63,987 bases of DNA, from positions 1-63,987 of IMG/VR virus record IMGVR_UViG_3300030419_004603, one strand, 5' to 3'. A program made the translations under genes and the position numbers. Under the pieces are notes generated by a model. The model searched no databases, had not been told where the DNA came from, and worked only from the letters and a program-made list of their open reading frames with translations. Below are positions 4,447-29,457 of this stretch, piece after piece; within the stretch, counting starts at the first letter, position 1, and every line of letters begins with the position of its first letter. Origin of the DNA: a virus.

Positions 4447-4480
4447 ACAGGCAGACGACACACCTGTAGAAAAATGTGTC
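4447..4480 (+). promoter_or_regulatory. interleaved inverted repeats in the TonB-receptor leader
   Basis: The 71-nt gap before the receptor gene holds two overlapping inverted repeats. ACAGG (4447-4451) pairs with CCTGT (4463-4467), and GACACA (4457-4462) pairs with TGTGTC (4475-4480). The second left arm lies in the loop of the first stem, so the two could form a pseudoknot or alternate. A strong Shine-Dalgarno AAGGAG follows at 4497-4502, 6 nt before ATG 4509. This could be an RNA control element for the receptor, but the stems are only 5-6 bp and may be chance. Confidence 0.3.
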
Positions 4481-4508
4481 ATTTCACAAACAAAACAAGG
4501 AGATTACT

Positions 4509-7280
4509 ATGAACTATCGTAATCTAATCTTCGGCCTAATATTGTCAGTTGGGGTTGTCTTTGGGCAATCTGTTACTGGTTTTGTTGGAGTCGGAGAACA
4601 ACCACTTGTTGGAGCAAATGTAATAGTAGAAGGTACTGAACTCGGTGGAGTAACAGACGAGACTGGGAAGTTCGTTATTGAAACTGGTACAGGTACTTTT
4701 GGTGTTACTGCTTCATACATCGGTTATGTATCCCAAACTAAAACAGTAAAAGTTGGGGACATAGTTGGGAGTGTTAGTTTCAATTTAGAAACTGATGTTG
4801 TTGCTCTCACGGCACTTGAAGTTTTGGCTTCAAGAGCGGATGAAACAACACCTGTGGCTTACACTAATGTTAGTAAAAAAGAAATGGAAGTAAGACTTGG
4901 TAGTCAAGATATTCCAATGATTCTTAATACTACACCAAGTGTATACGCTACACAACAAGGTGGTGGTGCGGGAGATGCCCGTATTAATGTTCGTGGATTC
5001 AATCAACGGAATGTTGCCGTAATGATTAATGGAGTTCCCCAAAATGATATGGAGAACGGATGGGTCTATTGGTCTAATTGGGATGGAGTGGGAGACGCTA
5101 CTTCCTCGATTCAGATGCAAAGGGGACTATCGGCTGTTAATTTAGCAACACCTTCTATTGGTGGTACTATGAATATTATCACCGACCCAGCAGCTCACGA
5201 GAAAGGTGGGAAGTTGAAACAAGAAGTCGGTGAGGGTGGGTTCTTAAAGACCACTTTGAATTATAACTCAGGTCTAATAAATGATAAACTAGCAGTAAGT
5301 GGAACGATTGTTCGTAAAACCGGAAACGGTTTTATAGATGGAACATGGACGGATGCTTGGGCTTATTATTTAGGTACATCTTATGCTGTATCAGACAAAC
5401 AACGATTTGAGTTATACGCAATAGGAGCACCACAGAGACATGGACAGAACCTATACAAACAGAATATCGCAACTTACTCACAAGAGTTAGCGAGTGATAT
5501 TGGATGGGATGACGAAGGTAATGGATACGACCCAACGGCATTTGCCGAAGGTGAGAAGTTCGAAACTGAAGCTGGTAGGTTCTATAATCAAAATTGGGCA
5601 CCTGTAGACCCATCATACAAAGGCCAACAATATTGGTATATGTATGGTGCTAGAACTACAGATAGGTTCAGTTCTGATTTCTTGAATGAAAGAGAAAACT
5701 TCTTTCATAAACCACTTGTGAACTTGAATCATTTTCTCGATTTAAACGACCAAATGACTTTAAGTTCTGTAGCTTATTGGAGTGGTGGTAGTGGTGGTGG
5801 AACTGGTACTTACGGAAGTGTCAGTAGAAAACCTGCGGTCGAAGGAGAACCTTGGTATGCAAGTTCACCTTGGATGTGGGATTGGGATGCTGAGATTGCA
5901 CAGAACTCTGCTAATGTAGATTCTGCATGGTCAGATGTTGAAAATCGTTCAACTGGTATCCTAAGAAATTCAATCAACAGACAAAACACCTATGGTTTAA
6001 TTTCAAAGTTAAACTATGATGTGAATGATGAACTTGAGGTTCAGATTGGTATTGATTGGAGAACTGCTGGTATAGAACACGCCAGAGAAGTTCGTGATTT
6101 ACTTGGTGGAGACTACTATGTAGATTTCGCCGATGACAACGCTGCCGATGGTAAGAAAGTTGGGTTAGGTGATATTATTGCTTATCACAACGAAACTACC
6201 GTTGATTGGTTTGGTGCTTTCTTACAAGGTAAATACGATACTGAAAAGATTAACCTATATGGTATGGGTGGTATATCCACAATCGGATATACATACGAAG
6301 ACCATTTTGCTATTAACAAAGATGAAGATGGAAATGATATCGATAACTTTGTTGAAGCTGATAACATCACAACTTTTCAAGTAAAAGGTGGTGGTAGGTA
6401 TAATCTTGATGACAGATTATCAGCATTTGCTAATGTTGGTTATGTACAGAAACCACCAATCTTAGATAATGTGATTGATTATGATGGAAATGTATCTACA
6501 AATCCTGATAATGAAAAATTCATATCTACAGAAGTTGGTGGTGAATACAGAAGTGGTTTAGTAGCTGTCAAAGGTAGTTACTATAATACACAATGGAAGG
6601 ATAGAAACCTTACCAAATCAGTAACAACTGGACAAGGTGACTCAGGTGACACAGACATCATTTACCTAACTGGTGTGAATCAAAGTCACAGTGGTTTCGA
6701 GATTGAGTCCAAAGTGGCTCTTCACGAAATGGTTGACTTAGATGTAGCAGTTAGTATTGGTGATTGGTACTTCGATGGAGACGCTACAGGTGATTACACA
6801 GAGATGGAATACAATGATGATAACCAAATCATCGGTCAAACATCTACTGAGTATGAATACGCATTAAACAATCTAAAGGTTGGTGATATGCCACAGACAG
6901 CTTATGTTGGTGGATTAACACTAAAACCAATCGAAGGATTGAGTGTACAAGGTCTTTATAGATGGTATGATAATCACTATTCAGATTGGAGTCCTGATTC
7001 TCGTGAAGTTGAAGGTGATGCTGATAGAGCACAAGTATGGAAAACACCATCATATGGTAAGTTAGACCTACACTTGTCTTATAAGCTACCTGAAGTAGCA
7101 GGACTTGACATGACTATTCATGGTCATTTGTTCAACGCTCTTGATAATGTATACATTCAAGACGCGGTAGATAATAGTAAGTACAATGGGTATGGTGATA
7201 AACTTCACTTAGCTCATAACGCTGAAGTATTCTTGGGTACACCAAGACATTTCAATTTAGGACTTTCTGTTAATTTCTAA
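4509..7280 (+). CDS. TonB-dependent outer-membrane receptor
   Basis: A 923-residue outer-membrane receptor. ATG 4509 is chosen over an upstream GTG at 4476 because AAGGAG sits 6 nt before it and a signal peptide starts there (MNYRNLIFGLILSVGVVFG, cleavage probably near GQS). After the signal peptide comes a carboxypeptidase-regulatory-like beta domain (about residues 20-100, GVTDETGKFVIETG). The TonB plug follows (about 125-230, with VRGFNQRNVAVMINGVPQND), then a long 22-strand-type barrel ending in the aromatic residue F (LSVNF). Such receptors import siderophores, cobalamin or glycans using TonB energy; the substrate is not readable here. It has its own leader and a terminator downstream, so it behaves like an autonomous cargo gene. 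A full-length receptor in a phage replication region is unusual. Confidence 0.88.
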   Translation: MNYRNLIFGLILSVGVVFGQSVTGFVGVGEQPLVGANVIVEGTELGGVTDETGKFVIETGTGTFGVTASYIGYVSQTKTVKVGDIVGSVSFNLETDVVALTALEVLASRADETTPVAYTNVSKKEMEVRLGSQDIPMILNTTPSVYATQQGGGAGDARINVRGFNQRNVAVMINGVPQNDMENGWVYWSNWDGVGDATSSIQMQRGLSAVNLATPSIGGTMNIITDPAAHEKGGKLKQEVGEGGFLKTTLNYNSGLINDKLAVSGTIVRKTGNGFIDGTWTDAWAYYLGTSYAVSDKQRFELYAIGAPQRHGQNLYKQNIATYSQELASDIGWDDEGNGYDPTAFAEGEKFETEAGRFYNQNWAPVDPSYKGQQYWYMYGARTTDRFSSDFLNERENFFHKPLVNLNHFLDLNDQMTLSSVAYWSGGSGGGTGTYGSVSRKPAVEGEPWYASSPWMWDWDAEIAQNSANVDSAWSDVENRSTGILRNSINRQNTYGLISKLNYDVNDELEVQIGIDWRTAGIEHAREVRDLLGGDYYVDFADDNAADGKKVGLGDIIAYHNETTVDWFGAFLQGKYDTEKINLYGMGGISTIGYTYEDHFAINKDEDGNDIDNFVEADNITTFQVKGGGRYNLDDRLSAFANVGYVQKPPILDNVIDYDGNVSTNPDNEKFISTEVGGEYRSGLVAVKGSYYNTQWKDRNLTKSVTTGQGDSGDTDIIYLTGVNQSHSGFEIESKVALHEMVDLDVAVSIGDWYFDGDATGDYTEMEYNDDNQIIGQTSTEYEYALNNLKVGDMPQTAYVGGLTLKPIEGLSVQGLYRWYDNHYSDWSPDSREVEGDADRAQVWKTPSYGKLDLHLSYKLPEVAGLDMTIHGHLFNALDNVYIQDAVDNSKYNGYGDKLHLAHNAEVFLGTPRHFNLGLSVNF

Positions 7281-7336: not shown

Positions 7337-8314
7337 ATGCATAAATTAGAATATCTATGGTTGGATGGTTGTACACCAACTCAAATAAGGTACAAAACAA
7401 AAGTTGTAAAAGATTTCGGAAAAAAGGAAGAAGCACCAATATGGGGATTTGATGGAAGTTCAACGGAACAGGCTGATGGTAATAATTCCGATTGTGTTTT
7501 AAAACCAGTTAGGGTTTATCCTAATCCTTTAGAAACAAATAGTTCAATAGTCTTATGTGAAGTATGGAATGTAGATGATACACCACACGAATCAAATACA
7601 AGAAGACTATTAGAAGAGACTATAACCGATGATATCGATGAGTGGGTAGGTTTTGAACAAGAATATACATTATTCAAAGGTGGTAAACCATATGGTTGGC
7701 CTTCTGTTGGACAGCCACCACCACAAGGGGATTACTATTGTGGTAGAAACATCGGTGAAAAGGTATCAAGAGAACATATGAACGCTTGTATTGAAGCTGG
7801 TATCAGTATTTGTGGAACTAACGCAGAAGTTATGTTAGGTCAATGGGAATATCAAATAGGTGCAGGTGGTTCAATACACATGAGTGATGATTTGTGGGTT
7901 GCTCGTTGGTTATTGGAAAGAATCTGTGAAGAACACGAGCTCGTTATCTCATTACATCCAAAACCAATTCAAGGTGATTGGAATGGTGCTGGTTGTCATA
8001 CCAATTTCTCTACAAAGGAGATGAGAGAAGATGGTGGTTATGATGAGATACTTGAAGCCTGTGAAAAATTATCAAAAAATCCACAAGAACATATTGATGC
8101 ATATGGTCAAGACAATGACCAAAGACTTACTGGATTACATGAAACCTGTAGTATTACAGAGTTTAGATATGGTGTTTCAGATAGGGGTGCATCAATTCGT
8201 ATACCTTGGCAGGTAAAACGAGATAAAAAAGGTTACTTGGAAGATAGAAGGCCAGCATCAAATTGTGACCCTTATGTCGTATCACAAAAATTAATCGAAA
8301 CAATCTGCAGTTAA
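7337..8314 (+). CDS. glutamine synthetase, type II (GSII-like)
   Basis: A 325-residue glutamine synthetase that would make glutamine from glutamate, ammonia and ATP. The sequence is of the short GSII class (eukaryotic and some bacterial) rather than the 470-residue GSI: EYLWLDG at the start, IWGFDGSSTEQA near residue 35, and EVWNVDDTPHESNTR. The catalytic NGAGCHTNFS lies near residue 216, with DRRPASNCDPY near the C-terminus. Acidic metal ligands (FEQEYTLF, GTNAEVMLGQWEYQIG) are present, so it looks active. It follows the terminator of the receptor gene, with weak AAGGG before ATG 7337. In a phage it would boost nitrogen supply for nucleotide synthesis, or supply glutamine for amidotransferases. 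This is an unusual auxiliary metabolic gene. Confidence 0.9.
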   Translation: MHKLEYLWLDGCTPTQIRYKTKVVKDFGKKEEAPIWGFDGSSTEQADGNNSDCVLKPVRVYPNPLETNSSIVLCEVWNVDDTPHESNTRRLLEETITDDIDEWVGFEQEYTLFKGGKPYGWPSVGQPPPQGDYYCGRNIGEKVSREHMNACIEAGISICGTNAEVMLGQWEYQIGAGGSIHMSDDLWVARWLLERICEEHELVISLHPKPIQGDWNGAGCHTNFSTKEMREDGGYDEILEACEKLSKNPQEHIDAYGQDNDQRLTGLHETCSITEFRYGVSDRGASIRIPWQVKRDKKGYLEDRRPASNCDPYVVSQKLIETICS

Positions 8315-10938: not shown

Positions 10939-11658
10939 ATGGAAAAAACCAAATTAACTCGGTTTATAGAAAAATACCACTTAAGTGGTAATGTAAATGC
11001 CGTGGTTATTAATAGTAACAATAGTAAATTATCAACTCGATTCATAACAGGTGATAAATCACTTTTAGGTGAATTAAGTTGTGATAAATTTACTTTCGAA
11101 GATACTGAACTTGGTGTTTATGATACAGAACAATTAAGTAAACTTTTAAGTGTACTTAGTGATGATGTGTCTTACAATGTTTCTAAAAGTGGTGATAAGG
11201 CGATAGCTCTTGAGGTCAATGACCAACATTCAAGTGTAAACTTTATGTTGAGTGATAAATCAGTTATCAACCAACCACCAGCATTAAAAACATTACCTGA
11301 GTTTCAAGTCAAAATAAAAGTTGATAGACAATTCATTACAAGGTTTGTAAGTGGTAAAAGTGCTCTAAGTGATACTGAAACATTTACTGTGCTAAGTGAT
11401 GGAACTGATACAAAGGTTGTAATAGGTTACGCTTCAATCAACACAAATAGAGTCACTATTCCTGTTGTTACAACGGAATCATCTGAGATAAAAAATGTTA
11501 GTTTTAACGCTAACTTATTTAAAGATGTATTGGTTGCTAATAAAGAATGTGAAAGTGCTACACTTGAGGTAAGTGAAGGTGGACTAGCTAAAATCAATTT
11601 TAGTGTTGATGATTACGATGTAACTTACTACTTAGTAGCAGTTCAGGATGTCGATTAA
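10939..11658 (+). CDS. DNA polymerase sliding clamp (T4 gp45-type)
   Basis: A 239-residue protein, close to the 228 residues of T4 gp45, placed between the polymerase and upstream of the clamp loader. The sequence is beta-rich with two similar halves (LSTRFITGDKSLLGEL; later TKVVIGYASINTNRV). It includes LSVLSDDVSYNV and YDVTYYLVAVQ, as expected for a trimeric PCNA/gp45-like ring. It tethers the polymerase to DNA, and in T4 it also activates late transcription. ATG 10939 is preceded by AAGGAG (10923-10928) at 10 nt spacing. Identification rests on fold-like pattern, size and position rather than one invariant motif. Confidence 0.8.
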   Translation: MEKTKLTRFIEKYHLSGNVNAVVINSNNSKLSTRFITGDKSLLGELSCDKFTFEDTELGVYDTEQLSKLLSVLSDDVSYNVSKSGDKAIALEVNDQHSSVNFMLSDKSVINQPPALKTLPEFQVKIKVDRQFITRFVSGKSALSDTETFTVLSDGTDTKVVIGYASINTNRVTIPVVTTESSEIKNVSFNANLFKDVLVANKECESATLEVSEGGLAKINFSVDDYDVTYYLVAVQDVD

Positions 11659-12625
11659 TCTTGATAACTTTCCAACTTTTAACGAAGAACATTTCCACGA
11701 TTGGGTAAATCAATTAACTCCAATTGAAGAGTATAAAGGTTATAGATTAAAACGAGATGACCAATTTAATCTTGGTGGTATTAGTGGTGGTAAGGTTAGA
11801 CAATGTGCCAAACTCGTTTATGATAATTTACAACATATAAAAGAAAATTGTAATGGTGGGATACTAACAGCTGCTGGTATTCCATCACCTCAATCTTGTA
11901 TTACAAGTGCGGTAGCAAAATACTTTGGATTAAAGTGTATCATTACTATTCCACATTATCCTGACCATATCAGAGATAGTTACAGAATAAATGCTTCGTT
12001 ATCACAAAAATTAGGGGCTAAAGTTTACGGAGTTGGAAATCCGAACATATCAGGTCCTGAACTTGATGCTAAAAAACTCGTTGGTGAAACAGGTTACTTT
12101 CAGATAAAATTTGGAATGAATGGGTTTCAAGTCATGAATACTGTTGCCCAACAAGTGAAGAATGTACCTGATGATGTAGAAACAATTGTTGGTATAGCAG
12201 GAAGTGGTCTATCAATGTTGGGTGTTGCTATGGGATGTAAAATATGGAACAAGAATGTCAAGACAATCAATCCTGTGGCACTTAGTGATTATGTGAATAA
12301 AAACAAAAAACAATCATACGATAATTTACCTGACAAATATAAATTCGATGGAGATTTCAATGTGGTTCAGAGTTATTATCCATATCAACATAAACTCAAG
12401 TTGGATGAGGAGATACAACTTGACCAAACATATGAAGCGAAAGCTTGGGATTGGATGGTCAAGAATATAAAACCATCTAAAAAGGTATTGTTTTGGGATG
12501 TTGGTATTAAAGAATATGATTTGAATTACATTGAACCCATCAAGTGGTATAAATCTGAATATGAAACTATTATTGATAGAGAAATGAGAAGAAAACATGA
12601 ACAAATCGAACACAACTTTTTCTAA
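11648..12625 (+). CDS. PLP-dependent enzyme, ACC deaminase / D-cysteine desulfhydrase fold
   Basis: A 325-residue fold-type II PLP enzyme. KRDDQFNLGGISGGKVRQ contains the expected Schiff-base lysine (K49), like the GGNKVRK of ACC deaminase and D-cysteine desulfhydrase. Next comes ILTAAGIPSPQSC in the substrate-carboxylate loop, and GIAGSGLSMLG is the PLP-phosphate loop. Family members deaminate or lyse small amino acids. The loop GIPSPQ replaces the usual GxQSNH, so the substrate is probably different. It overlaps the clamp gene end by 11 nt and leads a cassette with a Cys-rich YkgJ-like protein and two SPPY methyltransferases, which hints at a joint modification pathway. The specific reaction is unknown. 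Confidence 0.72.
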   Translation: MSINLDNFPTFNEEHFHDWVNQLTPIEEYKGYRLKRDDQFNLGGISGGKVRQCAKLVYDNLQHIKENCNGGILTAAGIPSPQSCITSAVAKYFGLKCIITIPHYPDHIRDSYRINASLSQKLGAKVYGVGNPNISGPELDAKKLVGETGYFQIKFGMNGFQVMNTVAQQVKNVPDDVETIVGIAGSGLSMLGVAMGCKIWNKNVKTINPVALSDYVNKNKKQSYDNLPDKYKFDGDFNVVQSYYPYQHKLKLDEEIQLDQTYEAKAWDWMVKNIKPSKKVLFWDVGIKEYDLNYIEPIKWYKSEYETIIDREMRRKHEQIEHNFF

Positions 12626-13145
12626 GGCTTGGTTAGAAAAGAAGATAATGTGTGGTTTATGTAACTTCGGTTGTTGCAATCACAAATCTTTCCATGTAGA
12701 GATTACAGAGGAAGAACAAGAAAAGTATAGAAAGAAGTTTGGGTTGGATTTAGAACTTGAGTGGTCACAAGATGGATGTTGTGATTTATTAAGTGATGAT
12801 GGTTCTGGCTGTAGCTTAGGTGATGAGAGACCTGCCTTCTGTAAGATGTATCCATTAGAAGAAAATAAGGCTGGTCGTATTGTGATTGGTAATTGGGCAT
12901 ACCTACATTGTCCGAAACCACAAGATTATGAATTAGATAAAGTGGTCGATGGGAAATATCATTACAAGTTAAAACGGAAACACAAGAATAAACGAGATGA
13001 ATTGATATTGGATGATAAGATAGAAAATGTAGTCACAGAAATATGGTTACAATCTAAGGAGGCACTCGTTGATACCTATGGAGAGGAATTTTACCAAAGG
13101 ATAAAAATAGATATGAAACAAACAATCAAACACGAGTTTTTTTAA
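12597..13145 (+). CDS. YkgJ-like cysteine-rich (zinc/iron-chelating) protein
   Basis: A 182-residue protein whose N-terminus is full of cysteines: MCGLCNFGCCNH near residue 18, then DGCCDLL, GCSLGDERPAFCKMYP and YLHCPKP. The CxxC...CC...C...RPxxCxxYP layout is that of the YkgJ / Fe-S or Zn cluster family (UPF0153), with an added basic C-terminal half (KLKRKHKNKRDE). ATG 12597 overlaps the PLP gene by 29 nt. ATG 12648, starting exactly at MCGLC, is a plausible alternative. Members often accompany modification enzymes, but their chemistry is poorly defined. Its stop overlaps the next ATG (TAATG), tying it to the methyltransferases. Confidence 0.65.
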   Translation: MNKSNTTFSKAWLEKKIMCGLCNFGCCNHKSFHVEITEEEQEKYRKKFGLDLELEWSQDGCCDLLSDDGSGCSLGDERPAFCKMYPLEENKAGRIVIGNWAYLHCPKPQDYELDKVVDGKYHYKLKRKHKNKRDELILDDKIENVVTEIWLQSKEALVDTYGEEFYQRIKIDMKQTIKHEFF

Positions 13146-14362
13146 TGTATTTAGATTACTTTGATAAGTTTTACAATATGAAACCATACCTTGAAATCAA
13201 TGAAAAGGAGTGGGAATATATTAAAGAAACATTTGATAAAGAGGATGTAAAAGAGAGTCTTGCTAAAGTTGCTATGACATACCCACTACCATATCCTGAT
13301 TTGACCGAAAAGAAGGCATACAAGGATTTTCAAAAACTTAAAGGTATGAAGTGGAACGAAATTATGGTCGAGGGTGATTGGTATGCAAGAGAGGGAACCG
13401 AATACTCATATGATTTACTACATGATGGAAAGCCATTATATTTTAAAAGATTAAATGCTGGTAATATATCGAGTAATTACTTTCAAATAAAAAATAGATG
13501 GAGTGTTGATGGTTCGGTTTCACCCGGCCCAAAAAGAACTTGGGAAAGTGAAAAGTTTATGACCACACTTATGGGGAGTGCTTACTCATTGAAGATGCCT
13601 AAGATTACAAAAAATATACTGAGAACCATGATTGGTTTGAGAAAGTACATCTGTAGTCAATTCAAACCTAATGTTGCTAAGATAATTTACGATATGTTCA
13701 AGTCTGAAAATATACTTGATTTTTCAATGGGTTGGGGTGATAGACTTGCTGGATTCTACGCAAGTGAATATGGAAAACATTATGTTGGTTTAGACCCAAG
13801 AAAGGAGAATCACCCTATATACAAGGAACAATCAAAGTTTTACCAAAAACATTTGGGATTCTTTGAACATGATAGAAAGTGTGATTTTCATTGTAGTCCC
13901 GCAGAAGATTTTGACTTCGCCCCGTACAAAGAACATTTTGACATGGTATTTACGAGTCCACCATACTTTAGTGTTGAACGCTATAGTTACGATGATACAC
14001 AAAGTTGGGTTAGATACAAAGACATAGACGATTGGAATAAAGATTTCTTACATTCGACCTTGGGTAAACTTTGGGATAGTGTCAAAAAAGGTGGTTATGT
14101 ATTAATCAATATAAGTGATGTTTATTCAAATGCTAAGTGGAGTACCGACAGAGGATGGTTGGAGATTTGTAATCCAATGAATGATTACCTTTCAAAACTT
14201 GGAACCTATCAAGGTTGTATTGGTATGGAGATGGCTAAGAGACCTAATAGTGGTGGAGCTGGAACGGCTAAAAGTTACGAGGGTTCGGTTTGGACGGAGA
14301 AGTCACTTGAGAATAAAGAAGATAAGAAATTTGGAGAACCTATTTGGGTATGGAAAAAATAA
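13145..14362 (+). CDS. SPPY-type SAM-dependent methyltransferase, paralog A
   Basis: A 405-residue protein. The C-terminal half is an amino-methyltransferase fold: motif I ILDFSMGWGDRLAGF at about 190-204 and catalytic motif IV TSPPYF at about 270-275, typical of N4-cytosine/N6-adenine DNA methyltransferases of order I then IV. The N-terminal 150 residues (FYNMKPYLEINEKEWEYI, then KLKGMKWNEIMVEG) are shared with the next gene and match no family I know. There is no evident long target-recognition domain after motif IV. It overlaps its neighbours by 1 and 13 nt. It may methylate phage DNA or a small base-like substrate; a protein target is not excluded. Confidence 0.72.
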   Translation: MYLDYFDKFYNMKPYLEINEKEWEYIKETFDKEDVKESLAKVAMTYPLPYPDLTEKKAYKDFQKLKGMKWNEIMVEGDWYAREGTEYSYDLLHDGKPLYFKRLNAGNISSNYFQIKNRWSVDGSVSPGPKRTWESEKFMTTLMGSAYSLKMPKITKNILRTMIGLRKYICSQFKPNVAKIIYDMFKSENILDFSMGWGDRLAGFYASEYGKHYVGLDPRKENHPIYKEQSKFYQKHLGFFEHDRKCDFHCSPAEDFDFAPYKEHFDMVFTSPPYFSVERYSYDDTQSWVRYKDIDDWNKDFLHSTLGKLWDSVKKGGYVLINISDVYSNAKWSTDRGWLEICNPMNDYLSKLGTYQGCIGMEMAKRPNSGGAGTAKSYEGSVWTEKSLENKEDKKFGEPIWVWKK

Positions 14363-15561
14363 CTGATTACTTCAAAAAATTCTACAATATGGAACCATAC
14401 CTATTTATTGATGAAAAGGAATGGAAGTATATTTTAGAGACATACGAAAAGGATGATGTTATAGAGGAGTTATCTAAGGCTCTACACACATACCCATGTC
14501 CTATACCTGAGATATCAGAGAAAGATACTTTAAAAAGTTTGAACAAACTAAAGGGTGTGAAATGGCCTGATTTACTAATTGAGGGTAAATGGTTTCCAAG
14601 AAACGAAAGGGATACCAAATATGAACTCACACCAAAGTATTTCAAACGAGATAATAAAGGAAATAATGCTTCCAATCCGTTTCACATAGAGACAAGATGG
14701 AAGGTGGATTGGACAAGGATGCCAAGTGGATGGAAAACATGGCAGACCGTCAAGGGAATAAAAACTATTGTGAGAGCCTACTATACTTTAGACAAGGTGT
14801 TACTCAAGGTGGATTTACAATCAATACGAATGGCAACAACATTGAGAAAGTATGTGGCATCACAATTCAAACCAAGTATAGCAAAGGCATTTTATGACTA
14901 TTTTGGAAGTGTTAATGTACTCGACTTTAGTGCTGGTTGGGGTGATAGGTTGGCTGGGTTTTATTGTGGAGAAACTACAAAATCATTCGTTGGGATTGAC
15001 CCCAACTCTACCAATCATCCAAACTATAAAAGACAAGTTGAGTTTTATAAAAAACATCAAACATTCTTCGAGGAACAAAAACAAGTAGAGTTAATCTGTA
15101 GTCCAGCAGAAGATGTGGATTACTCAAAATATGAAAATTATTTTGATATGATATTCACTTCACCACCTTATTTTGATGTCGAAAAGTATAGTGATGAGGA
15201 TACGCAGAGTTACAAGAGATACACCACAATCGATAGCTGGAATGAGAACTTCTTACACAAGACCATTGGTAAATTGATACCGACATTGAAGAAAGATGGA
15301 ACACTTGCTATAAATATTGCAGATGTCTACCACGAGTCCGTGAAAGGTTATGTTGACATTACAAATTCCATGAATGACTTTATAAAATCACAAGGACTAA
15401 AATATGAAGGGTGTATCGGAATGGAAATGACTAAAAGGTTTAATTCTGCTGGTGCTGGTAAGGCAGTAAGTGATTACTACGCCGATAATTTAAAAGAAAA
15501 GGCAAAGATTACAGAGAATATGGCATTTGGTGAACCGATTTGGATTTGGAAAAAAAAGTGA
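14350..15561 (+). CDS. SPPY-type SAM-dependent methyltransferase, paralog B
   Basis: A 403-residue tandem paralog of the previous gene. The architecture is identical: N-terminal FYNMEPYLFIDEKEWKYI, motif I VLDFSAGWGDRLAGF at residue about 192, motif IV TSPPYF at about 270, and a conserved tail FGEPIWIWKK. Both catalytic motifs are intact. ATG 14350 is preferred over TTG 14344; either overlaps the end of paralog A. The divergence between copies is substantial, so the duplication is old and the two probably differ in target. A third, more distant copy lies at 28366. Function as for paralog A: likely nucleic-acid amino-methyltransferase, target unknown. Confidence 0.72.
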   Translation: MEKITDYFKKFYNMEPYLFIDEKEWKYILETYEKDDVIEELSKALHTYPCPIPEISEKDTLKSLNKLKGVKWPDLLIEGKWFPRNERDTKYELTPKYFKRDNKGNNASNPFHIETRWKVDWTRMPSGWKTWQTVKGIKTIVRAYYTLDKVLLKVDLQSIRMATTLRKYVASQFKPSIAKAFYDYFGSVNVLDFSAGWGDRLAGFYCGETTKSFVGIDPNSTNHPNYKRQVEFYKKHQTFFEEQKQVELICSPAEDVDYSKYENYFDMIFTSPPYFDVEKYSDEDTQSYKRYTTIDSWNENFLHKTIGKLIPTLKKDGTLAINIADVYHESVKGYVDITNSMNDFIKSQGLKYEGCIGMEMTKRFNSAGAGKAVSDYYADNLKEKAKITENMAFGEPIWIWKKK

Positions 15562-15602: not shown

Positions 15603-16520
15603 ATGACAGAACACACATTATGGGTTGAAAAACATCGACCAAAAACACTCGATACATATATTGGAAATGAACAACTGAAAAGTAAAGTTCAAGTTTATTT
15701 GGATAGTGGAGATTTACCACATCTTTTGTTATTTGGTAAGGCTGGAACTGGTAAGACCACATTAGCCAAATTACTCGTCAATAATATAGATTGTGATTAT
15801 CTATACATCAACGCTTCAGATGAAAATAATGTGGAAACCGTCAGAAGTAAGGTCAAGAACTTTGCCTCCACTATGGGATTTAAGGATTACAAGGTTATTA
15901 TCTTGGATGAGTGTGATTACATCACACCTAACGCACAAGCCGCCCTTCGTAATCTAATGGAAACATTTAGTAAACATTGTAGGTTCATCTTGACTTGTAA
16001 TTTCGTAGAGAGAATAATTGACCCGATACAATCTCGTTGTCAATCTTTTCAAGTGATACCACCAAATAAGAATGATGTAGCAAAACATCTACATAATATA
16101 TTGACTCAAGAGAATGTTAGTTACAATAGAGAGGATTTAGGTATATTAGTTAATAGTGGTTATCCTGATATCAGAAGAGTTATCAACGGAGCTCAAAGAC
16201 AATCACTTGGTGGTAAATTAACAATTGATAAACAGAGTATCGTTGAGAATGACTACAAGATGAAGTTGTTGGAGATACTCAAGACACAAGATAGAAAAAA
16301 CGCCTTCAAGAACATTCGTCAGTTGATGGCAGACGCAAAGGTTACAGACTTCGCAGACTTATTTAGACTTTTATATGACGAAGTTGATAGTTATGGTAAA
16401 GGTCATGTAGCTGATTGTATCTTGATTATTGCTAAATATGAATTAAGTGATTCACAAGTGGTGGATAAAGAAATCAACGCCATGGCTATGTTGATAGAAA
16501 TTTTAAGTGTTATTAAATAA
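15603..16520 (+). CDS. sliding-clamp loader large subunit (T4 gp44 / RFC-small-like)
   Basis: A 305-residue AAA+ ATPase. It opens with WVEKHRPKTLDTYIGNE, the RFC-box start. Walker A GKAGTGKTT is at about residues 45-54, the Walker B DECD box at 102-105, the arginine-finger SRC box (IQSRCQSF) follows, and sensor 2 is around YPDIRRVING. It forms the ATPase motor that opens the sliding clamp and loads it on primed DNA. A weak AGAGG precedes ATG 15603. The partner small subunit is about 11 kb downstream at 27923, an unusual separation compared with the adjacent 44-62 genes of T4. Confidence 0.93.
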   Translation: MTEHTLWVEKHRPKTLDTYIGNEQLKSKVQVYLDSGDLPHLLLFGKAGTGKTTLAKLLVNNIDCDYLYINASDENNVETVRSKVKNFASTMGFKDYKVIILDECDYITPNAQAALRNLMETFSKHCRFILTCNFVERIIDPIQSRCQSFQVIPPNKNDVAKHLHNILTQENVSYNREDLGILVNSGYPDIRRVINGAQRQSLGGKLTIDKQSIVENDYKMKLLEILKTQDRKNAFKNIRQLMADAKVTDFADLFRLLYDEVDSYGKGHVADCILIIAKYELSDSQVVDKEINAMAMLIEILSVIK

Positions 16521-19350: not shown

Positions 19351-22083
19351 ATGAAAAACATATTTGATAAATTAGTTTATAAACACATCATTGGTAATTT
19401 TGTAAATCATTTCAATATGGAGTTTTTTGAGGGTATTGTTCAATTAAAGAGAAACGAAGCCCTATTGTTTTGTCATGATATTATACCTCAGAATACTACT
19501 CCATATATTACTGAAATCAATACTAATACAGCCGTTGATGATGACCTTGTAGAATGGTTTGATTACGAACCCATAATTCTTGCCACAAAAAAATGGCAGT
19601 ATGATAATGTAATTGTTTTAGTGGAGAAAAATGAATCCAATATCATTGAAAACGGAAAGTGGTACAAACAACTTCAAAAAGAGTGTGAAAAACATGGTAA
19701 AAATGTTCGTATTAAATCATGTCTAGCAGAAACAGATATTTGGGATTTTGATTACAATAAACAACAAGATTTCATTATAAGAATAGCTTGGGATAAGAAT
19801 TGTCTAATAGATAAATTTGCAGCAAACAAATACAAGTTCAAAAAATTCATGACCGAACAAAGTATAGCAACACCAAAATGGTCAACCGATTCAAGTATTT
19901 ATGAAAAGGATAAATTTTTTGTATTCAAGGATTCTAAGGTTGATAAAAAAGTAGGAATCTCGATAAAAAAATTCTCAACCAAAAAAGAGTTTACAGAATA
20001 TTTAAAAGATTTTGACTATGTTGAGGAGTATATTAAAAGTGATGTAGATTTCCAATGTGGTTCCCAAGTAGAAGTAAAACATTATTCAATGTATTATAGA
20101 AATTTCTTTTACAACATGACTCCAAATATTTACACTCAATTATTCGATTATAAAAAACACGATGACCAATTAGATTTGAATCGTATAGGGTATGCTAACT
20201 TCTTATACAAAGATGACATTGGTAAAGATTATGTAAACTCAAATGTTGATTTAGTGCATCCATTTCATTACAAGTTCATTCGAATAAATGATAAGTTCGA
20301 TTTTTCACATTCCTCATCTATACTTGTTTATCAATATAAAAGAGGAGAATTTAAGCCTGTTCATTTGATAGAAGTAGGTGATGTATTACTTAGAAATGAT
20401 GAAAAAGTTATCGTTGAAACTATTGAAATTATTGAAAAACAAATTAGAGTAAAAGCATTACAACATGAAGATAATGTAATCGAATATAATGGATTTCAAA
20501 TACAAGCAAAACACGAAAATTTTATAAGTGGTGTCGATAGTATAATCACAGACCCATTTAAAGGTCAACAAGTTTTAAGTTCCAAAGAAGAAGAATTAGT
20601 ATCTGCAATAATGGCTAAAGCAAAAGACGCGGAAATGCCAGAAAGAGTTGTGGAAATTACTTTTGAATGTCAAGGAACATTTTTTACAAGTGAATTCTTA
20701 TTCGAAAAACCACTCAAGGTAATAAACTCGATGGACTACGATATCCGTATGGATAGAACTGATGGTAGGGAAGAGTTTGGAACTCATAATACGGCAGGTG
20801 TAGAAAGGAAGGAACCTACTTTTGGTTGGGCTTCTTATGACCCTAAACTTACTTACGAACTAAAACATATGAATGTAATGAAGTTACGACCTGGTATGGT
20901 TTGTTTGACACCAAAAAGAAAGGATATGAAAATTATTCGTGGTCTGTATGGTGGATTTGTACCATGTAAAGTCGTGAGTATCAAAGAGGTGCCAGGTAAA
21001 AAATCACATTGGGATATTTACGATATACTACCTACAGAAAATTATTTTATGAACAGACTTCATGTTCACAATGGGCCAGCAAATTATTCATTAACAAGTG
21101 GGCCAGTTTTGATGGGTCATTGGGATATATCACATCCAAGTAGTTTTAGTTCACCTGACGATACAGTATTTGATTTGACATCACGACTGAATGCGGATTT
21201 GACTATACATCAAAATCTACCAGCACCACAAATAAGTCCCAATCAAACTACGAATGTTTCTTCACAAAATCATAATCCCATAGTGACATCATATTTTCCA
21301 AATCCTGAATTTAAGGCCATTAATTTTACCACAAGTTTAAAGGGTGCGAGACTTACAAGACAACCAAGTAACCCATATCATGAACAATATGCATTTAACT
21401 CACAATATCCAATGTCAGTATTGTGGAGTAACGCTCTATCAGACTTTACAACCAGTGGTACATCATTTCCAGTACCTGGCATTGGAGCACCGAACTCTCC
21501 TACGGCACGAAGATGGAGTACTTGTAATCCTGGTACAAATTGGGATGTTGTCCTATCAGATGGTGGTAATACAACAAACTCAAGATGGATGGTATATAAT
21601 GGAAATGGTTACGAAGCAGTTCCAACAGGTTTTCTTTGGAATGGAACTTCAGACCAAACTGGATACGGACACACCATAGGTGACCCAAAGAGTGGTACTA
21701 CGAATAACTTTGTACAAAAATTTAGATTCACCACTTTGATTTCAGACCAAAGTTCACCATATTATACACTTTATGGAAATTGGAAACAACCTTCAACATT
21801 AGTTGCAGGTTCATTTGGTAATTCTTTCAATGTACCAACACCAGCCGCAAACCCACGAGCTCCAAGTCAAAATTTCGCGTTCGGTGGACATGGATATCCA
21901 AATCCAACCACAAATGAAGGTGCATTTGCTTGGAATATTGTGATGATGTATCATCAAGGTAATACACAAGCTGCAAGTCAATTCCTTCAAATATTTCAAG
22001 GAAGCCCAAATTCAAAAATGTATTATAGGTCTGATAATCCTGGTTTGACTGGTTCACCAACATATGATGGTTCGGGTCCATAA
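19351..22083 (+). CDS. large multidomain protein with Hint-like domain and C-terminal adhesin-like region
   Basis: A 910-residue mosaic. Residues 1-320 weakly resemble an ATP-grasp fold (IRIAWDKNCLIDKF, FVFKDSKVDKKVG, YVEEYI). About 320-575 resembles a Hint/intein domain: it begins near SILVYQYKRGEFKPVHLIEVGDVLL and ends in the intein-like ILPTENYFMNRLHVHN. The C-terminal 335 residues are Ser/Thr/Asn/Pro-rich and beta-like (FDLTSRLNADLTIHQ), with many tryptophans and glycines, as in tail-fibre or receptor-binding proteins. HN is followed by Gly, not Cys/Ser/Thr, so canonical splicing is unlikely; autocleavage is possible. It is probably a virion surface protein, and the next gene looks like a partner. 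Confidence 0.6.
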   Translation: MKNIFDKLVYKHIIGNFVNHFNMEFFEGIVQLKRNEALLFCHDIIPQNTTPYITEINTNTAVDDDLVEWFDYEPIILATKKWQYDNVIVLVEKNESNIIENGKWYKQLQKECEKHGKNVRIKSCLAETDIWDFDYNKQQDFIIRIAWDKNCLIDKFAANKYKFKKFMTEQSIATPKWSTDSSIYEKDKFFVFKDSKVDKKVGISIKKFSTKKEFTEYLKDFDYVEEYIKSDVDFQCGSQVEVKHYSMYYRNFFYNMTPNIYTQLFDYKKHDDQLDLNRIGYANFLYKDDIGKDYVNSNVDLVHPFHYKFIRINDKFDFSHSSSILVYQYKRGEFKPVHLIEVGDVLLRNDEKVIVETIEIIEKQIRVKALQHEDNVIEYNGFQIQAKHENFISGVDSIITDPFKGQQVLSSKEEELVSAIMAKAKDAEMPERVVEITFECQGTFFTSEFLFEKPLKVINSMDYDIRMDRTDGREEFGTHNTAGVERKEPTFGWASYDPKLTYELKHMNVMKLRPGMVCLTPKRKDMKIIRGLYGGFVPCKVVSIKEVPGKKSHWDIYDILPTENYFMNRLHVHNGPANYSLTSGPVLMGHWDISHPSSFSSPDDTVFDLTSRLNADLTIHQNLPAPQISPNQTTNVSSQNHNPIVTSYFPNPEFKAINFTTSLKGARLTRQPSNPYHEQYAFNSQYPMSVLWSNALSDFTTSGTSFPVPGIGAPNSPTARRWSTCNPGTNWDVVLSDGGNTTNSRWMVYNGNGYEAVPTGFLWNGTSDQTGYGHTIGDPKSGTTNNFVQKFRFTTLISDQSSPYYTLYGNWKQPSTLVAGSFGNSFNVPTPAANPRAPSQNFAFGGHGYPNPTTNEGAFAWNIVMMYHQGNTQAASQFLQIFQGSPNSKMYYRSDNPGLTGSPTYDGSGP

Positions 22084-22596: not shown

Positions 22597-23271
22597 GTGT
22601 TTAATAAAAATGGTTATGAAATTCGTAGAGATGCGATAGATACTAAAACACTGGATTTAGTGTATGAGTATCACAAATTAAAAGTAGAAAATAATGAGTT
22701 CGAGATAGATACTGCACAAGTAACTGGAACCATCACAATGTATGGTGATACATTAAATGATTCAATTTTAAGATGGTCATTACCATTTGCTCAAGAAGTG
22801 ATTGGTGAAGAATTATATCCTTGTTATAGTTTCCTAAGAATTTATAATAATGGAGATATTTTAGAACCTCATTGTGATAGACCATCATGTGAGTTTAGTG
22901 CAACATTACCAATATATTTTGATAAAAAATGGCCTATTATGATGAAAAAACACGATTTTGAAAAATATGGTGAGGATTATTTAACCCCATCATTGGAAAA
23001 AAATGAAGATGGTTCAATTGAAAATGATACGATAGCAGTAACACTTAATAGGGGTGATATATGTTTTTATGAAGGCACAAAAATGAATCATTGGAGAGAC
23101 CCATTTATGGGAAATGATTGTGTACAATTATTTATACATTATGTCAGAAAAAATGGTGAACACTCAAATTTCAAATACGACCAAAGAGATAACCTTGGTT
23201 TACCATCTGTAAGTGGACACTCTTTGATGGATGCTAGAAAAAAATACTTAGAATCATTTTTTGATGATTAA
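22597..23271 (+). CDS. 2OG-Fe(II) oxygenase-like protein
   Basis: A 224-residue protein starting at GTG 22597; the ATG at 22595 is out of frame. The core LRIYNNGDILEPHCDRPSCEFSA contains H-x-D, GDICFYEGTKMNHWRD contains the distal His, and the strand VQLFIHYVRK follows. This arrangement fits the 2-oxoglutarate/Fe(II) dioxygenase fold, although the terminal Arg is less clear. ENDTIAVTLNRGD is typical of the jelly-roll turn. Clustering with other oxygenases, an acetyltransferase and a sulfotransferase suggests a side-chain or glycan modification group. Substrate unknown. Confidence 0.68.
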   Translation: MFNKNGYEIRRDAIDTKTLDLVYEYHKLKVENNEFEIDTAQVTGTITMYGDTLNDSILRWSLPFAQEVIGEELYPCYSFLRIYNNGDILEPHCDRPSCEFSATLPIYFDKKWPIMMKKHDFEKYGEDYLTPSLEKNEDGSIENDTIAVTLNRGDICFYEGTKMNHWRDPFMGNDCVQLFIHYVRKNGEHSNFKYDQRDNLGLPSVSGHSLMDARKKYLESFFDD

Positions 23272-25694: not shown

Positions 25695-26595
25695 ATTTTT
25701 AAAAGGATTTATAGCAGCAGCAATTGCAGTATTCGCTTGGTCAACCCTTGAGGTCACTGGTAGTTTTATATTTGCAGAAGGAGCAGGGCCTGTATCGGTT
25801 TTATCGGTTAGGTTTCTAATCGCCACACTATTGTTTGGTGGAGTGATGTTGTGGAAGAAACAGACAACAGGTGAAAATCTGTTTTATGTTGAGAAGGAAG
25901 ATAGAAAACAATTTTTGATTAATGGTGTAATATTGGCAGTACACTTATTGGTGTATTGGTTTGCTTGGGAATTACTTGACCCGAACCTACCTGTTATCTA
26001 CGCAATATTCTATATGTATCCATTTGTACTATGTTTGATTTCCATATTTTACTATGGAGAAAAGTTCAGTAATGGTAGAAAGATAGCATTAGGATTGGGA
26101 ACACTTGGTTGTATGTTTGCTATTGAATTGATACCATCATTCTCAACAGAAGGTTTGAACGCAAAGGGTATATTATTAGATGTAGCAGCCTGTTTGACTT
26201 GGGTAGCGTATCTAATAGTAGGACAAGGTATTATGAAAAAATATAAACCACTTACGATTGTATTTTATGACTTTCTACAAGTGTTTGTATATGTTTCATT
26301 ATTCCAATCACCAATGACAACACTTTCAGAGGTAACATTCAATGGTCTGTTAGCAATCGCATACATTTCAGTAGTTGCAAGTTTTATCGCATACTTCTGT
26401 TATTGGATAGCTGTAAAGAATATTGGAGCTACAAATACAGGTTTAGTTGAATTGGGAACACCAATCTTTGGAGTGACACTTGGTTATTTTTTCTTATCGA
26501 TGACACCATCATTATGGCAGATACTTGGACTTGTAATGATTTCAAGTGGATTGTTTTTAGTTTATAAGGAAAAAGAAGTAGTATATGACCAATAA
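25687..26595 (+). CDS. EamA/DMT-family inner-membrane transporter
   Basis: A 302-residue protein with about ten hydrophobic helices in two EamA repeats. The first starts FIAAAIAVFAWSTLEVTG and the second around GILLDVAACLTWVAYLI, ending LGLVMISSGLFLVYKEKE. EamA members export or import amino acids, nucleotide sugars or other metabolites. Its coupling to the porin-like gene and location within a phage region are unusual. Substrate cannot be read from the sequence. Overlaps of 8 and 11 nt link it to its neighbours. Confidence 0.88.
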   Translation: MTKFLKGFIAAAIAVFAWSTLEVTGSFIFAEGAGPVSVLSVRFLIATLLFGGVMLWKKQTTGENLFYVEKEDRKQFLINGVILAVHLLVYWFAWELLDPNLPVIYAIFYMYPFVLCLISIFYYGEKFSNGRKIALGLGTLGCMFAIELIPSFSTEGLNAKGILLDVAACLTWVAYLIVGQGIMKKYKPLTIVFYDFLQVFVYVSLFQSPMTTLSEVTFNGLLAIAYISVVASFIAYFCYWIAVKNIGATNTGLVELGTPIFGVTLGYFFLSMTPSLWQILGLVMISSGLFLVYKEKEVVYDQ

Positions 26596-27064
26596 AGACT
26601 TCGTAATAGATTGGTTCGAAAATCATATTTGGGCACGACCATGGCCTTCAACAATATGTGATGGTTGTGGTAGTATTGCAATTAGAGACATTCCGAAGGG
26701 TACGAGTGTGTATGACAAATGTGATAGAAGTGTTAGAGTTTGGGTGGATTGGGAAGATATTTCCCATTTCCCCCAAGGTCTAATTCAATGTATTTATGAT
26801 TGTCAAATTAGTGTAGGAACAAAACCAAACAATAAAGACTTCACTTGGAAAAAAGAGTATGGTAAAATATGGATGTATACCACCGAAGGTCTTAATTTTC
26901 AATCAAATTGGTTTTTTCAAAATCACTCAGATACTCCTAATCTTAATGTGGAAGTAGTTGGTAGTAGAGATTTCAAATATGTTACCAATTGTGATATTAA
27001 AAAAGGGGAAGAACTTTTCGAAGACTATACCGATTACAGTAGTTGGAATGGGAAACCAAGTTAG
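26585..27064 (+). CDS. SET-domain protein (putative lysine methyltransferase)
   Basis: A 159-residue protein that fits a minimal SET domain. The N-terminal GSIAIRDIPKGTSVYD matches the G-x-G-like start with K-G-x-x-V/I. FFQNHSDTPNLNVEVVG is the NHSxxPN active-site motif, and NCDIKKGEELFEDYTDY is the GEEL-x-x-DY motif that completes the pseudoknot and carries the catalytic Tyr. SET enzymes methylate lysines using SAM. Phage-encoded SET proteins are uncommon; the target could be a host or phage protein. The post-SET cysteines are absent. It overlaps the transporter gene by 11 nt. Confidence 0.75.
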   Translation: MTNKDFVIDWFENHIWARPWPSTICDGCGSIAIRDIPKGTSVYDKCDRSVRVWVDWEDISHFPQGLIQCIYDCQISVGTKPNNKDFTWKKEYGKIWMYTTEGLNFQSNWFFQNHSDTPNLNVEVVGSRDFKYVTNCDIKKGEELFEDYTDYSSWNGKPS

Positions 27065-27922: not shown

Positions 27923-28366
27923 ATGAAAACAAAATCTTTGTTTGACCACATCACCCACATAACATCTAAACAGACTAAAAACTATTGGGAAAACTTAAAT
28001 GATGCCGATAGAAAGACTTGGTCTAATTATATGGTTCATAGGTTTCTTTCCATGAATATGAATTGGGTTGATATCGTCAATGAATTACAAAAATATAAAT
28101 TAAAACCAAAGGACTTATACCGATTGTATACTGAAATACTACCAAAGGGTAAGCAATGGTTACGATACACTAAAGGAAAAAAGGTTATGAAACATCCACA
28201 ATGGGTAGTAGATATAGTTACAAAATATCATCAAGTCAGTACAAAAGAAGCTAACGAGTATTTGGAAATATATTATAGTTCCGAACAAGGAAAGGCCGAA
28301 TTAAAATCCATACTTCAAAAATTTGGAACTGAACCGAAGGAAATTAAAAAACTAAATCTTCCCTAA
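27923..28366 (+). CDS. sliding-clamp loader small subunit (T4 gp62-like)
   Basis: A 147-residue protein resembling gp62-type clamp-loader subunits: KSLFDHITHITSKQTKNYW, then DRKTWSNYMVHRFLSMN corresponds to the conserved ...fmvNRwLSm... segment. The rest is helical with ILPKGKQWLRYTKGKK. Its partner is the gp44-like ATPase at 15603. Such subunits do not bind ATP and complete the pentameric loader. The assignment rests on a short conserved stretch, size and genome logic. The stop overlaps the start of the third SPPY methyltransferase (TAATG). Confidence 0.68.
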   Translation: MKTKSLFDHITHITSKQTKNYWENLNDADRKTWSNYMVHRFLSMNMNWVDIVNELQKYKLKPKDLYRLYTEILPKGKQWLRYTKGKKVMKHPQWVVDIVTKYHQVSTKEANEYLEIYYSSEQGKAELKSILQKFGTEPKEIKKLNLP

Positions 28367-29457
28367 TGGCCAGAGTAAACTATGAAACTCTTGGTAAGCT
28401 CATCGATGTTGATGAGAGAGACTTGGAGTTTGAAAGGGTTACCAATTCAATAGATGTTACAGATAGAGAATATGGTGTTCAAGTCATATTTGATTACTAT
28501 CGTAGACATGGATTCCCCCACTACACAATTCGTGAAGAGGAAAAACACGACCATTTAAAGAAACTGAGAAAGTTTGATGTCGATACGATATTCAAAGATA
28601 ATCAGATTATTCAAACTATGCACGGATTGAGATTATGTTGGACTTACCACCCACACTTTTGGGAAGTAGTATGTGGTAGTTCTAAAAGGTCACCTATGGA
28701 GATTTTCTTAGATGATGATATGTTTAAATCAACGATTCGTAAGTGTTGGAATTGGGAACAGAAACACTACAAGGGTGAAGACCCAAATGGTGAGAGAAAT
28801 GTATTTCATGAAAATAGACTCAGACAATCAATAAAAATTTATAGTGGTACTCAATCCGTTAGTAACTTTAGACCGACAGCTGCAAAATTAATATATGAAA
28901 AGTTCGGTGGAGATGGTGTAGTTTGGGACATGAGTTGTGGTTGGGGTGGACGACTATTGGGTGCACTATCATCCAAAAAAATTCGGCATTATATTGGCAC
29001 AGAACCGAGTTCTAAAACATATAATGGTCTTTTAAAAATGAGCAAGGATTTTGATTATATAAACAAAAAAGTAAATATATATAGACAAGGAAGTGAGGAG
29101 TACACACCCAAAAAAGAATCTTTAGATTTGTGTTTTACCTCACCACCTTACTTCGATACTGAAAAATATTCAGACGAATCAACACAAAGTTATATAAAGT
29201 ATCCTACTCAAGATGAGTGGGTAAATGGTTTTTTAAGACAAACAATTCAAAACTGTCACATAGGACTTAAAAAGGGTGGTTATATGCTATACAATATAGC
29301 AAACACACCAAAGTATAAATTCATAGAAGAGGAAACAATTAATATTTCGAAATCACTTGGATTTATTCAAGAAGAAACAATACAGCTAACATTATCAAGT
29401 GTGATGGGAGCGGGATATAAATACGAACCCATTTTTATTTTTAGAAAAGGAGAATAA
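28366..29457 (+). CDS. SPPY-type SAM-dependent methyltransferase, paralog C
   Basis: A 363-residue third member of the family at 13145 and 14350. Motif I is VWDMSCGWGGRLLGA at about residues 187-201 and motif IV is TSPPYFDTEKYSDESTQSY at about 258-276. A shared pre-motif FRPTAAKLIYEKF precedes motif I. The N-terminal domain is different in sequence but also about 150-180 residues long (YYRRHGFPHYTIREEEK). All catalytic positions are intact. It follows the gp62-like gene by a 1-nt overlap and precedes ClpP-like copy 2. It is probably a nucleic-acid amino-methyltransferase; the differing N-domain may set another specificity. Confidence 0.72.
   Translation: MARVNYETLGKLIDVDERDLEFERVTNSIDVTDREYGVQVIFDYYRRHGFPHYTIREEEKHDHLKKLRKFDVDTIFKDNQIIQTMHGLRLCWTYHPHFWEVVCGSSKRSPMEIFLDDDMFKSTIRKCWNWEQKHYKGEDPNGERNVFHENRLRQSIKIYSGTQSVSNFRPTAAKLIYEKFGGDGVVWDMSCGWGGRLLGALSSKKIRHYIGTEPSSKTYNGLLKMSKDFDYINKKVNIYRQGSEEYTPKKESLDLCFTSPPYFDTEKYSDESTQSYIKYPTQDEWVNGFLRQTIQNCHIGLKKGGYMLYNIANTPKYKFIEEETINISKSLGFIQEETIQLTLSSVMGAGYKYEPIFIFRKGE

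Follow-up and report, generated by a model that had tools for sequence, protein, structure and literature searches.

The DNA analysed here, called the window below, comprises positions 1 to 63,987 of IMG/VR virus record IMGVR_UViG_3300030419_004603, a viral contig of 63,987 bases, from a marine phage, that carries a T4-like replisome: a 5'-3' exonuclease, a DnaB-like helicase, a class II ribonucleotide reductase (RNR), PolB, a sliding clamp, a clamp loader and, starting at 27923, the loader small subunit. Four overlapping genes, all on the + strand, fill the interval between clamp and clamp loader. They encode a pyridoxal phosphate (PLP)-dependent enzyme of fold type II (11648-12625, 325 aa), a CxxCxxCC (YkgJ-like) cysteine-rich protein (12597-13145, 182 aa) and two tandem paralogous methyltransferases, MT1 (13145-14362) and MT2 (14344-15561), each of 405 aa. 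The PLP enzyme and the methyltransferases are considered here as candidate partners in DNA base modification. By coordinates, clamp and PLP genes overlap by 11 bases, PLP and cysteine-rich protein genes by 29, cysteine-rich protein and MT1 genes by 1, and MT1 and MT2 genes by 19. A first-pass annotation had given the same open reading frames (ORFs) between clamp and clamp loader, and their coordinates were confirmed. The ratio of nonsynonymous to synonymous substitution rates (dN/dS) was 0.02-0.11 for the cassette genes, indicating strong purifying selection, and chance ORFs could therefore be ruled out for all four.

The PLP enzyme is, by its sequence, a member of a phage-specific branch of the D-cysteine desulfhydrase/1-aminocyclopropane-1-carboxylate (ACC) deaminase fold, and this branch includes gp052 of Pseudomonas phage M6. 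The window protein matched the phage families phrog_3650 (E 3.8e-20) and, over residues 29-286, phrog_7093 (E 1.4e-9). M6 gp052 aligned with a profile of the branch (hhalign 99.8%, E 1.2e-27), and short phrog_7093-type proteins matched M6 gp052 in turn. The catalytic PLP lysine corresponds to K49 in the alignment, and the C-terminal signature of the window protein reads YEAKAWDWM..LFWDVG. The PLP lysine and a KAW..FW(N/D/V)(V/I)G C-terminus are common to the branch, with K49, K265, W267, F282 and W283 conserved or nearly so. Hidden Markov model match, PLP lysine and C-terminal signature together place the protein among the M6-gp052-like phage PLP enzymes (phrog_7093).

An AlphaFold2 model of the PLP enzyme (pLDDT 85) had its best match among solved structures in D-cysteine desulfhydrase 4d8t (TM 0.66, 19% identity), so that fold and family models agree with the resemblance to ACC deaminase and D-cysteine desulfhydrase seen at first pass. 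The protein is not a D-cysteine desulfhydrase proper, because its scores are far under the curated cut-offs (38 bits versus 289.4 for TIGR01275, 13.6 versus 392 for TIGR01274). One alignment-based scan of viral contigs identified 574 relatives of the short PLP form. A relative scan for the PLP protein of a high-GC locus (L036) returned that locus alone, and another PLP relative (L037), with two in-frame stops in the aligned region, was taken as partial sequence only.

MT1 and MT2 are predicted class I S-adenosylmethionine (SAM) methyltransferases of the exocyclic-amine type, preceded by an N-terminal domain. Amino-methylase motifs are intact in both and in a third copy, MT3 (28366-29457, + strand, 363 aa), which lies apart from the cassette (METHYLTRANSFERASES). 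In MT1, motif I starts at D192 (D-F-S-M-G-W-G) and motif IV at S271 (S-P-P-Y-F). In MT2 the corresponding positions are 194 and 273, so the motifs are equally spaced and offset by two residues, not at identical positions as had been stated. A possible alternative start of MT2 is the ATG at 14350. The two proteins are about 50% identical overall and 41% identical in the N-domain. Against PF01555 (N6_N4 DNA methylase, cut-off 26.7 bits), MT2 passes with 31.4 bits (E 2.3e-7), MT1 is 0.1 bit short with 26.6 bits (E 7e-6), and MT3 is also under the cut-off (24 bits, E 4.4e-5). The Type II MTase and mad2 models of PADLOC matched MT1, and the cassette methyltransferases matched amino-methylase models, not C5 models. 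Membership in PF01555 is thus based on MT2 and the intact motifs, from which methyl transfer to a base amine is predicted.

MT3 is a real but distant paralog (about 24% identical); with a Vibrio phage 2.058.O protein named 'N-4 cytosine-specific DNA methylase', it shares 41% identity. It directly follows the gp62-like clamp loader small subunit (27923-28366, + strand; PF16790 E 9.8e-5, below cut-off). It had been described as adjoining nmad1 (nucleotide modification associated domain 1, DUF1599; 30110-30520, + strand; PF07659 27.5 bits versus a cut-off of 25), a gene given here for context; a ClpP gene separates the two.

An AlphaFold2 model of MT2 (pLDDT 91) was compared with other folds. The best Foldseek match in the Protein Data Bank (PDB) was Trm11, with about 240 columns that cover about the catalytic half only; no solved PDB structure matched the fold of the N-domain, and phmmer and profile searches of the PDB with MT2 returned nothing useful. 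Near-full-length fold matches were found in viral proteins only, several of them pithovirus proteins annotated as cytosine-N4 methyltransferases, and further predicted folds from Satyrvirus and an uncharacterized salmon gill poxvirus protein. The full-length matches in pithoviruses and a poxvirus make the architecture a wider viral feature. The N-domain is therefore common to MT1 and MT2, as had been noted, but not confined to these paralogs; it probably supplies DNA recognition. As an observation in its own right, one methyltransferase architecture (MT2, 14344-15561) is common to phages and large eukaryotic viruses.

PLP genes recur close to genes for SPPY methyltransferases. In the pairing test, 17 viral contigs of at least 49 kb with both families (9 after dereplication), each with exactly one PLP gene and one or more methyltransferase genes, were compared with 20,000 random placements. 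The PLP gene was at most 150 bp from an SPPY methyltransferase gene in 7 of the 17 contigs (0.15 expected from random placement) and at most 2.5 kb away in 14 (1.9 expected). For the dereplicated set, the numbers were 4/9 (0.09 expected) and 8/9 (1.08 expected), respectively. None of the 20,000 random placements reached the observed nearness. When PLP relatives were clustered at 70% identity, an SPPY methyltransferase was present within the examined stretch for 11 or 12 of the 16 clusters. PLP genes stand upstream or downstream of either of two methyltransferase types: a long methyltransferase may directly precede the PLP gene (L141), or the PLP gene may come directly before a 409-aa methyltransferase (L209), before a long one (L219) or before MT1 (L030).

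Contigs of at least 70 kb chosen for the methyltransferase alone had one PLP gene in 6 of 6 cases, and in 10 of 20 cases when shorter contigs were included. Methyltransferases do without the PLP enzyme and the PLP enzyme usually comes with a methyltransferase, which fits a methyltransferase acting first and a PLP enzyme editing later. There are exceptions: a PLP gene without an SPPY methyltransferase was found in M6, in Aeromonas phage phiA8-29 and in an 84-kb contig (G018). In phage phiA8-29 (L002:4776-7110), the PLP relative follows NADAR-like and HAD-like genes, as judged by eye.

The association extends to gene fusion and beyond the phage group of the window. In Erythrobacter phage ZS04, direct reading of the translation places a PLP domain between motifs I and IV of a ParB-CPPY methylase, and Erythrobacter phage R6L has a corresponding single gene, which spans the start of the record. 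In Microcystis phage JY30 (Mae-JY30), three separate genes, for ParB, methylase and PLP, follow one another with overlaps. Cellular contigs with a ParB-CPPY-type methylase directly before a PLP relative come from Rhizobium, Rhodobacter, Sinorhizobium, Devosia, a Flavobacteriaceae metagenome-assembled genome (MAG), Kiloniella and a Leptolyngbya MAG (in Rhizobium, Rhodobacter and Devosia, PLP was located by a tblastn match, not as a called ORF). The PLP family and the amino-methylases are each known. The recurrent pair, the fusion and the breadth we did not find described in the part of the literature that was searched.

Genes of other kinds also neighbour the PLP branch. TS-like (thymidylate synthase-like) genes stand between the PLP gene and a long methyltransferase in G006/L107 and G004. 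One locus without such a methylase (L269) has TS-like, kinase-like and dCMP-deaminase genes beside the PLP gene, as in M6, so that the PLP branch seems to serve at least two modification contexts. A TET-associated glycosyltransferase (TAGT) and a GT-B protein are encoded near the PLP gene in L075, an Asn_synthase gene two genes before it in L096, and an AsnB-like gene (by phrog and sequence) adjoins it in L107. An Asp/Arg hydroxylase gene lies directly upstream in L070 and L266, and near the PLP gene in L057. Genes similar to phosphoadenosine phosphosulfate (PAPS) reductase were found between PLP and methyltransferase genes in L266 (3716-4393) and close to the PLP-methylase fusion in R6L and ZS04 (L136, L137), and none was seen near the cassette of the window.

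The cysteine-rich protein has the pattern C19-x2-C22-x3-C26-C27, plus C61, C72, C82 and C105. It is a marginal member of PF03692 (CxxCxxCC/YkgJ; 23.1 bits, 0.1 bit over the cut-off of 23). The cysteine pattern is kept in 19 distinct proteins, with C62 in 18. The protein probably has an Fe-S or zinc site, and a redox or radical role is possible. The one relative found outside the clade (L135, 41% identical) is encoded two genes from a methyltransferase; a tblastn search of the phage collection gave no match. The gene was not seen in PLP-methylase pairs beyond this clade, and it is absent from L030, where clamp, PLP, MT1 and loader genes follow each other and the PLP protein, encoded directly before MT1, is 65% identical to that of the window. 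This locus rules out the cysteine-rich protein as an obligate component; it is a lineage-specific accessory and not a constant partner.

Conservation of the cassette as a whole was judged over 135 loci. The upstream boundary is the gp45-like sliding clamp (10939-11658, + strand), assigned from its location beside PolB and from homologs in related contigs; Pfam gave no match for it at E 0.01. The downstream boundary is the gp44-like AAA+ large subunit of the clamp loader (15603-16520, + strand; AAA E 3.3e-18, DNA_pol3_delta2 E 2.4e-11). In close relatives reaching that far, PLP and cysteine-rich protein genes stay after the clamp, and MT1 is next, with or without MT2. Five loci (L048-L050, L053, L054) have the order clamp-MT1-MT2-loader, without PLP and cysteine-rich protein genes. 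Other relatives have inserts between the cysteine-rich protein gene and MT1, between MT1 and MT2 or between MT2 and the loader, among them SGNH-hydrolase, radical-SAM, glycosyltransferase, amidinotransferase and other genes (named by eye). The four genes had been taken for one coupled unit. They do overlap in the window, but L030, the five loci just mentioned and the inserted cargo show that they are not conserved as a unit, and the co-occurrence in relatives that had been proposed as a check is not obligate.

Two further observations concern this interval. In L012, L020, L024, L043 and L097, its cargo includes genes that look, by eye, like those for SGNH hydrolases, glycosyltransferases, radical SAM/SPASM proteins, an amidinotransferase and a shikimate kinase. 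In L014 (10823-13122), the clamp loader is split by an intein-like segment, inside which lies an endonuclease-like ORF.

Taken together, we consider the chances about even that the PLP enzyme and the SPPY methyltransferases carry out a post-replicative modification of phage DNA bases, encoded beside the replisome. We infer from the genomic data that DNA is the substrate, that the PLP enzyme acts on a base-linked amino acid, and in which order the steps occur. MT1 and MT2, with SAM bound, would alkylate an exocyclic amine of newly replicated DNA, either cytosine N4 or adenine N6, and the tandem copies probably differ in the sequence or the strand that they target. The PLP enzyme would then form an external aldimine with a base-attached alpha-amino acid, and remove or rearrange it; decarboxylation would be the M6 precedent. 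PLP editing would be a later and optional step, since the methyltransferases can act without it, and the cysteine-rich protein would be a redox or Fe-S accessory restricted to one lineage. The amino-acid group might be supplied by another gene or by the SPPY enzymes themselves, or the PLP enzyme might act on something else.

A specific version of this scheme, which we regard as doubtful, is that SPPY/CPPY enzymes transfer a group bearing an alpha-amino acid (for example, SAM's 3-amino-3-carboxypropyl group) to the base amine, and that decarboxylation or cleavage of this group by an M6-like PLP enzyme follows. If true, such a route would require neither a 5-hydroxymethyl pyrimidine nor an amino-acid:DNA transferase (ADDT), and would be widespread in marine phages and prophages.

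The first-pass annotation had suggested a nucleic-acid modification pathway with an amino acid or sulfur donor. Its PLP and methyltransferase part is supported by the kinship to M6 gp052, the adjacency to and fusion with (S/C)PPY methylases in many unrelated phages and prophages, and the DNA-modification genes in the neighbourhood, whereas the four genes cannot be upheld as one obligate pathway. An amino-acid link of the PLP enzyme is plausible by analogy with M6. A link to sulfur is only hinted at, by the PAPS-reductase-like neighbours in the three other loci.

Several points weigh against a joint role in DNA modification. The M6 PLP enzyme reportedly decarboxylates an amino-acid moiety attached to DNA, and the scheme relies on this precedent; to our knowledge, the M6 protein is the only member of the PLP branch with an assigned role, in a pathway with a different partner. 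ADDT and TS/hydroxymethylase families had no match in the window and in 91-kb and 132-kb relatives, which are possibly incomplete (the ADDT search detected the M6 control). Therefore, no M6-like way of linking an amino acid to DNA can be seen, and the system cannot be assigned to M6-type thymidine hypermodification via 5-hydroxymethyldeoxyuridine (5-hmdU). Random placement ignores the functional clustering of phage genes, and so overstates the surprise of the observed nearness. In a control set of 12 contigs, selected through an unrelated gene of the phage group, 5 had the methyltransferase and none had the PLP gene. Finally, because the interval between clamp and loader is a hotspot for cargo, nearness within the clade proves little, and the five loci with MT1 and MT2 do without PLP and cysteine-rich protein genes.

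Among the alternatives, the one that survives best, although we consider it unlikely, has the methyltransferases produce N4-methylcytosine or N6-methyladenine against host restriction, with the PLP enzyme as a small-molecule amino-acid deaminase or desulfhydrase in nitrogen, sulfur or SAM metabolism, and nearness due to shared early or middle expression. This would agree with the amino-methyltransferase signatures, with methyltransferases occurring without PLP genes, with D-cysteine desulfhydrase as the closest fold and with a glutamine synthetase gene nearby. It would not explain why PLP genes adjoin different methyltransferases, on both sides and far above random, why a PLP domain is found inside a methylase, or the relation to M6 gp052, and the ACC-deaminase and desulfhydrase models score far under their cut-offs.

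Still less probable, in our view, is that the PLP enzyme and the cysteine-rich protein are unrelated cargo in a hotspot beside the replisome, and have no joint function with MT1 and MT2 in this phage. The variable inserts in the interval and the clamp-MT1-MT2-loader order of some relatives are as expected for cargo. However, the PLP gene keeps its place after the clamp in close relatives reaching that far while other cargo changes, and its pairing with methyltransferases recurs outside the interval and outside the phage group. Modification of RNA (tRNA or mRNA) or protein is highly improbable. In its favour, guanosine N2 of tRNA is also a target of class I methyltransferases that have a proline pair in motif IV, and among PDB folds MT2 comes closest to Trm11, the tRNA m2G10 enzyme. 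However, this match to the catalytic half is a generic Rossmann one, the families matched by sequence are those of DNA methylases, the full-length fold matches include several with an annotation as DNA (cytosine-N4) methyltransferase, and the neighbours are replication genes.

If the PLP enzyme and the methyltransferases do modify DNA jointly, phages with this pair should hold an uncatalogued amino-acid-derived base, or DNA methylases with a new chemistry. The pair would widen the range of base modifications for phage restriction resistance, and it provides a genomic signature to find them. The PLP branch is carried by hundreds of viral contigs, and in one verified case the PLP domain is lodged within the methylase.

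Elsewhere in the window, a glutamine synthetase gene (7337-8314) adjoins the DNA polymerase gene and is kept in many relatives. Between it and the class II RNR gene lies a gene for a 934-aa TonB-dependent receptor (4476-7280) with CarbopepD_reg_2 and Plug domains in the style of SusC/RagA. A 910-aa protein (19351-22083), apparently structural, contains a Hint/intein-like segment ending in HN, as judged by eye. One stretch encodes a ferrochelatase-like protein (phrog_2954), a SET-domain protein and three 2-oxoglutarate-Fe(II) oxygenases (22597-23271, 26585-27064, 17626, 18679, 24380).

Compared with known systems, the phage PLP enzyme shares fold and PLP lysine with D-cysteine desulfhydrase and ACC deaminase (fold type II), but is only about 19% identical, scores far under the curated cut-offs and has the distinct KAW..FW C-terminus. 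Its substrate loop reads IPSPQS, in place of the QSN-type loop of ACC deaminases. The cysteine-rich protein can be compared with the flagellin lysine methylase FliB, whose CX4CX3CC cluster, likened to PF03692 by its authors, holds a [4Fe-4S] cluster and supports a SAM-dependent reaction (PMC8598068). The phage protein has a similar cluster, CX2CX3CC, and the cysteine motif alone is in common.

CmoA/CmoX/CmoY of Synechococcus phage S-B43 also start with an enzyme of methyltransferase fold and include an Asn-synthetase-like ligase, which adds glycine to carboxymethylated cytosine (PMC12783734); AsnB-like genes lie near the PLP gene in L107 and L096. CmoX is a C5-cytosine enzyme that uses carboxy-SAM (Cx-SAM), whereas the methyltransferases of the window are of the amino type and are accompanied by a PLP enzyme.

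The M6-like cassette of phage SN1 consists of a pyrimidine hydroxymethylase, Nmad5, aGPT-Pplase1, a nucleotide kinase, a radical SAM enzyme, a PLP enzyme and aGPT-Pplase2, and M6 DNA carries hypermodified thymines (PMC9476957). The PLP enzyme of the M6 5-hmdU pathway is of the same phage-specific branch (phrog_7093) and likewise stands beside other DNA-modification enzymes. M6 has an ADDT gene directly before the PLP gene and no SPPY methyltransferase, whereas the window and its 132-kb relative have the PLP gene near SPPY methyltransferases and no ADDT or TS/hydroxymethylase match. The ParB-CPPY systems of R6L/ZS04, JY30 and alphaproteobacteria differ in their ParB-like domain, in a CPPY methylase from a different branch (hhalign 97%, E 1e-10, 170 columns) and in a short PLP protein (about 225-270 aa), but in them too a PLP relative forms a pair with a methylase, or lies within one, and motif I of this methylase precedes motif IV.

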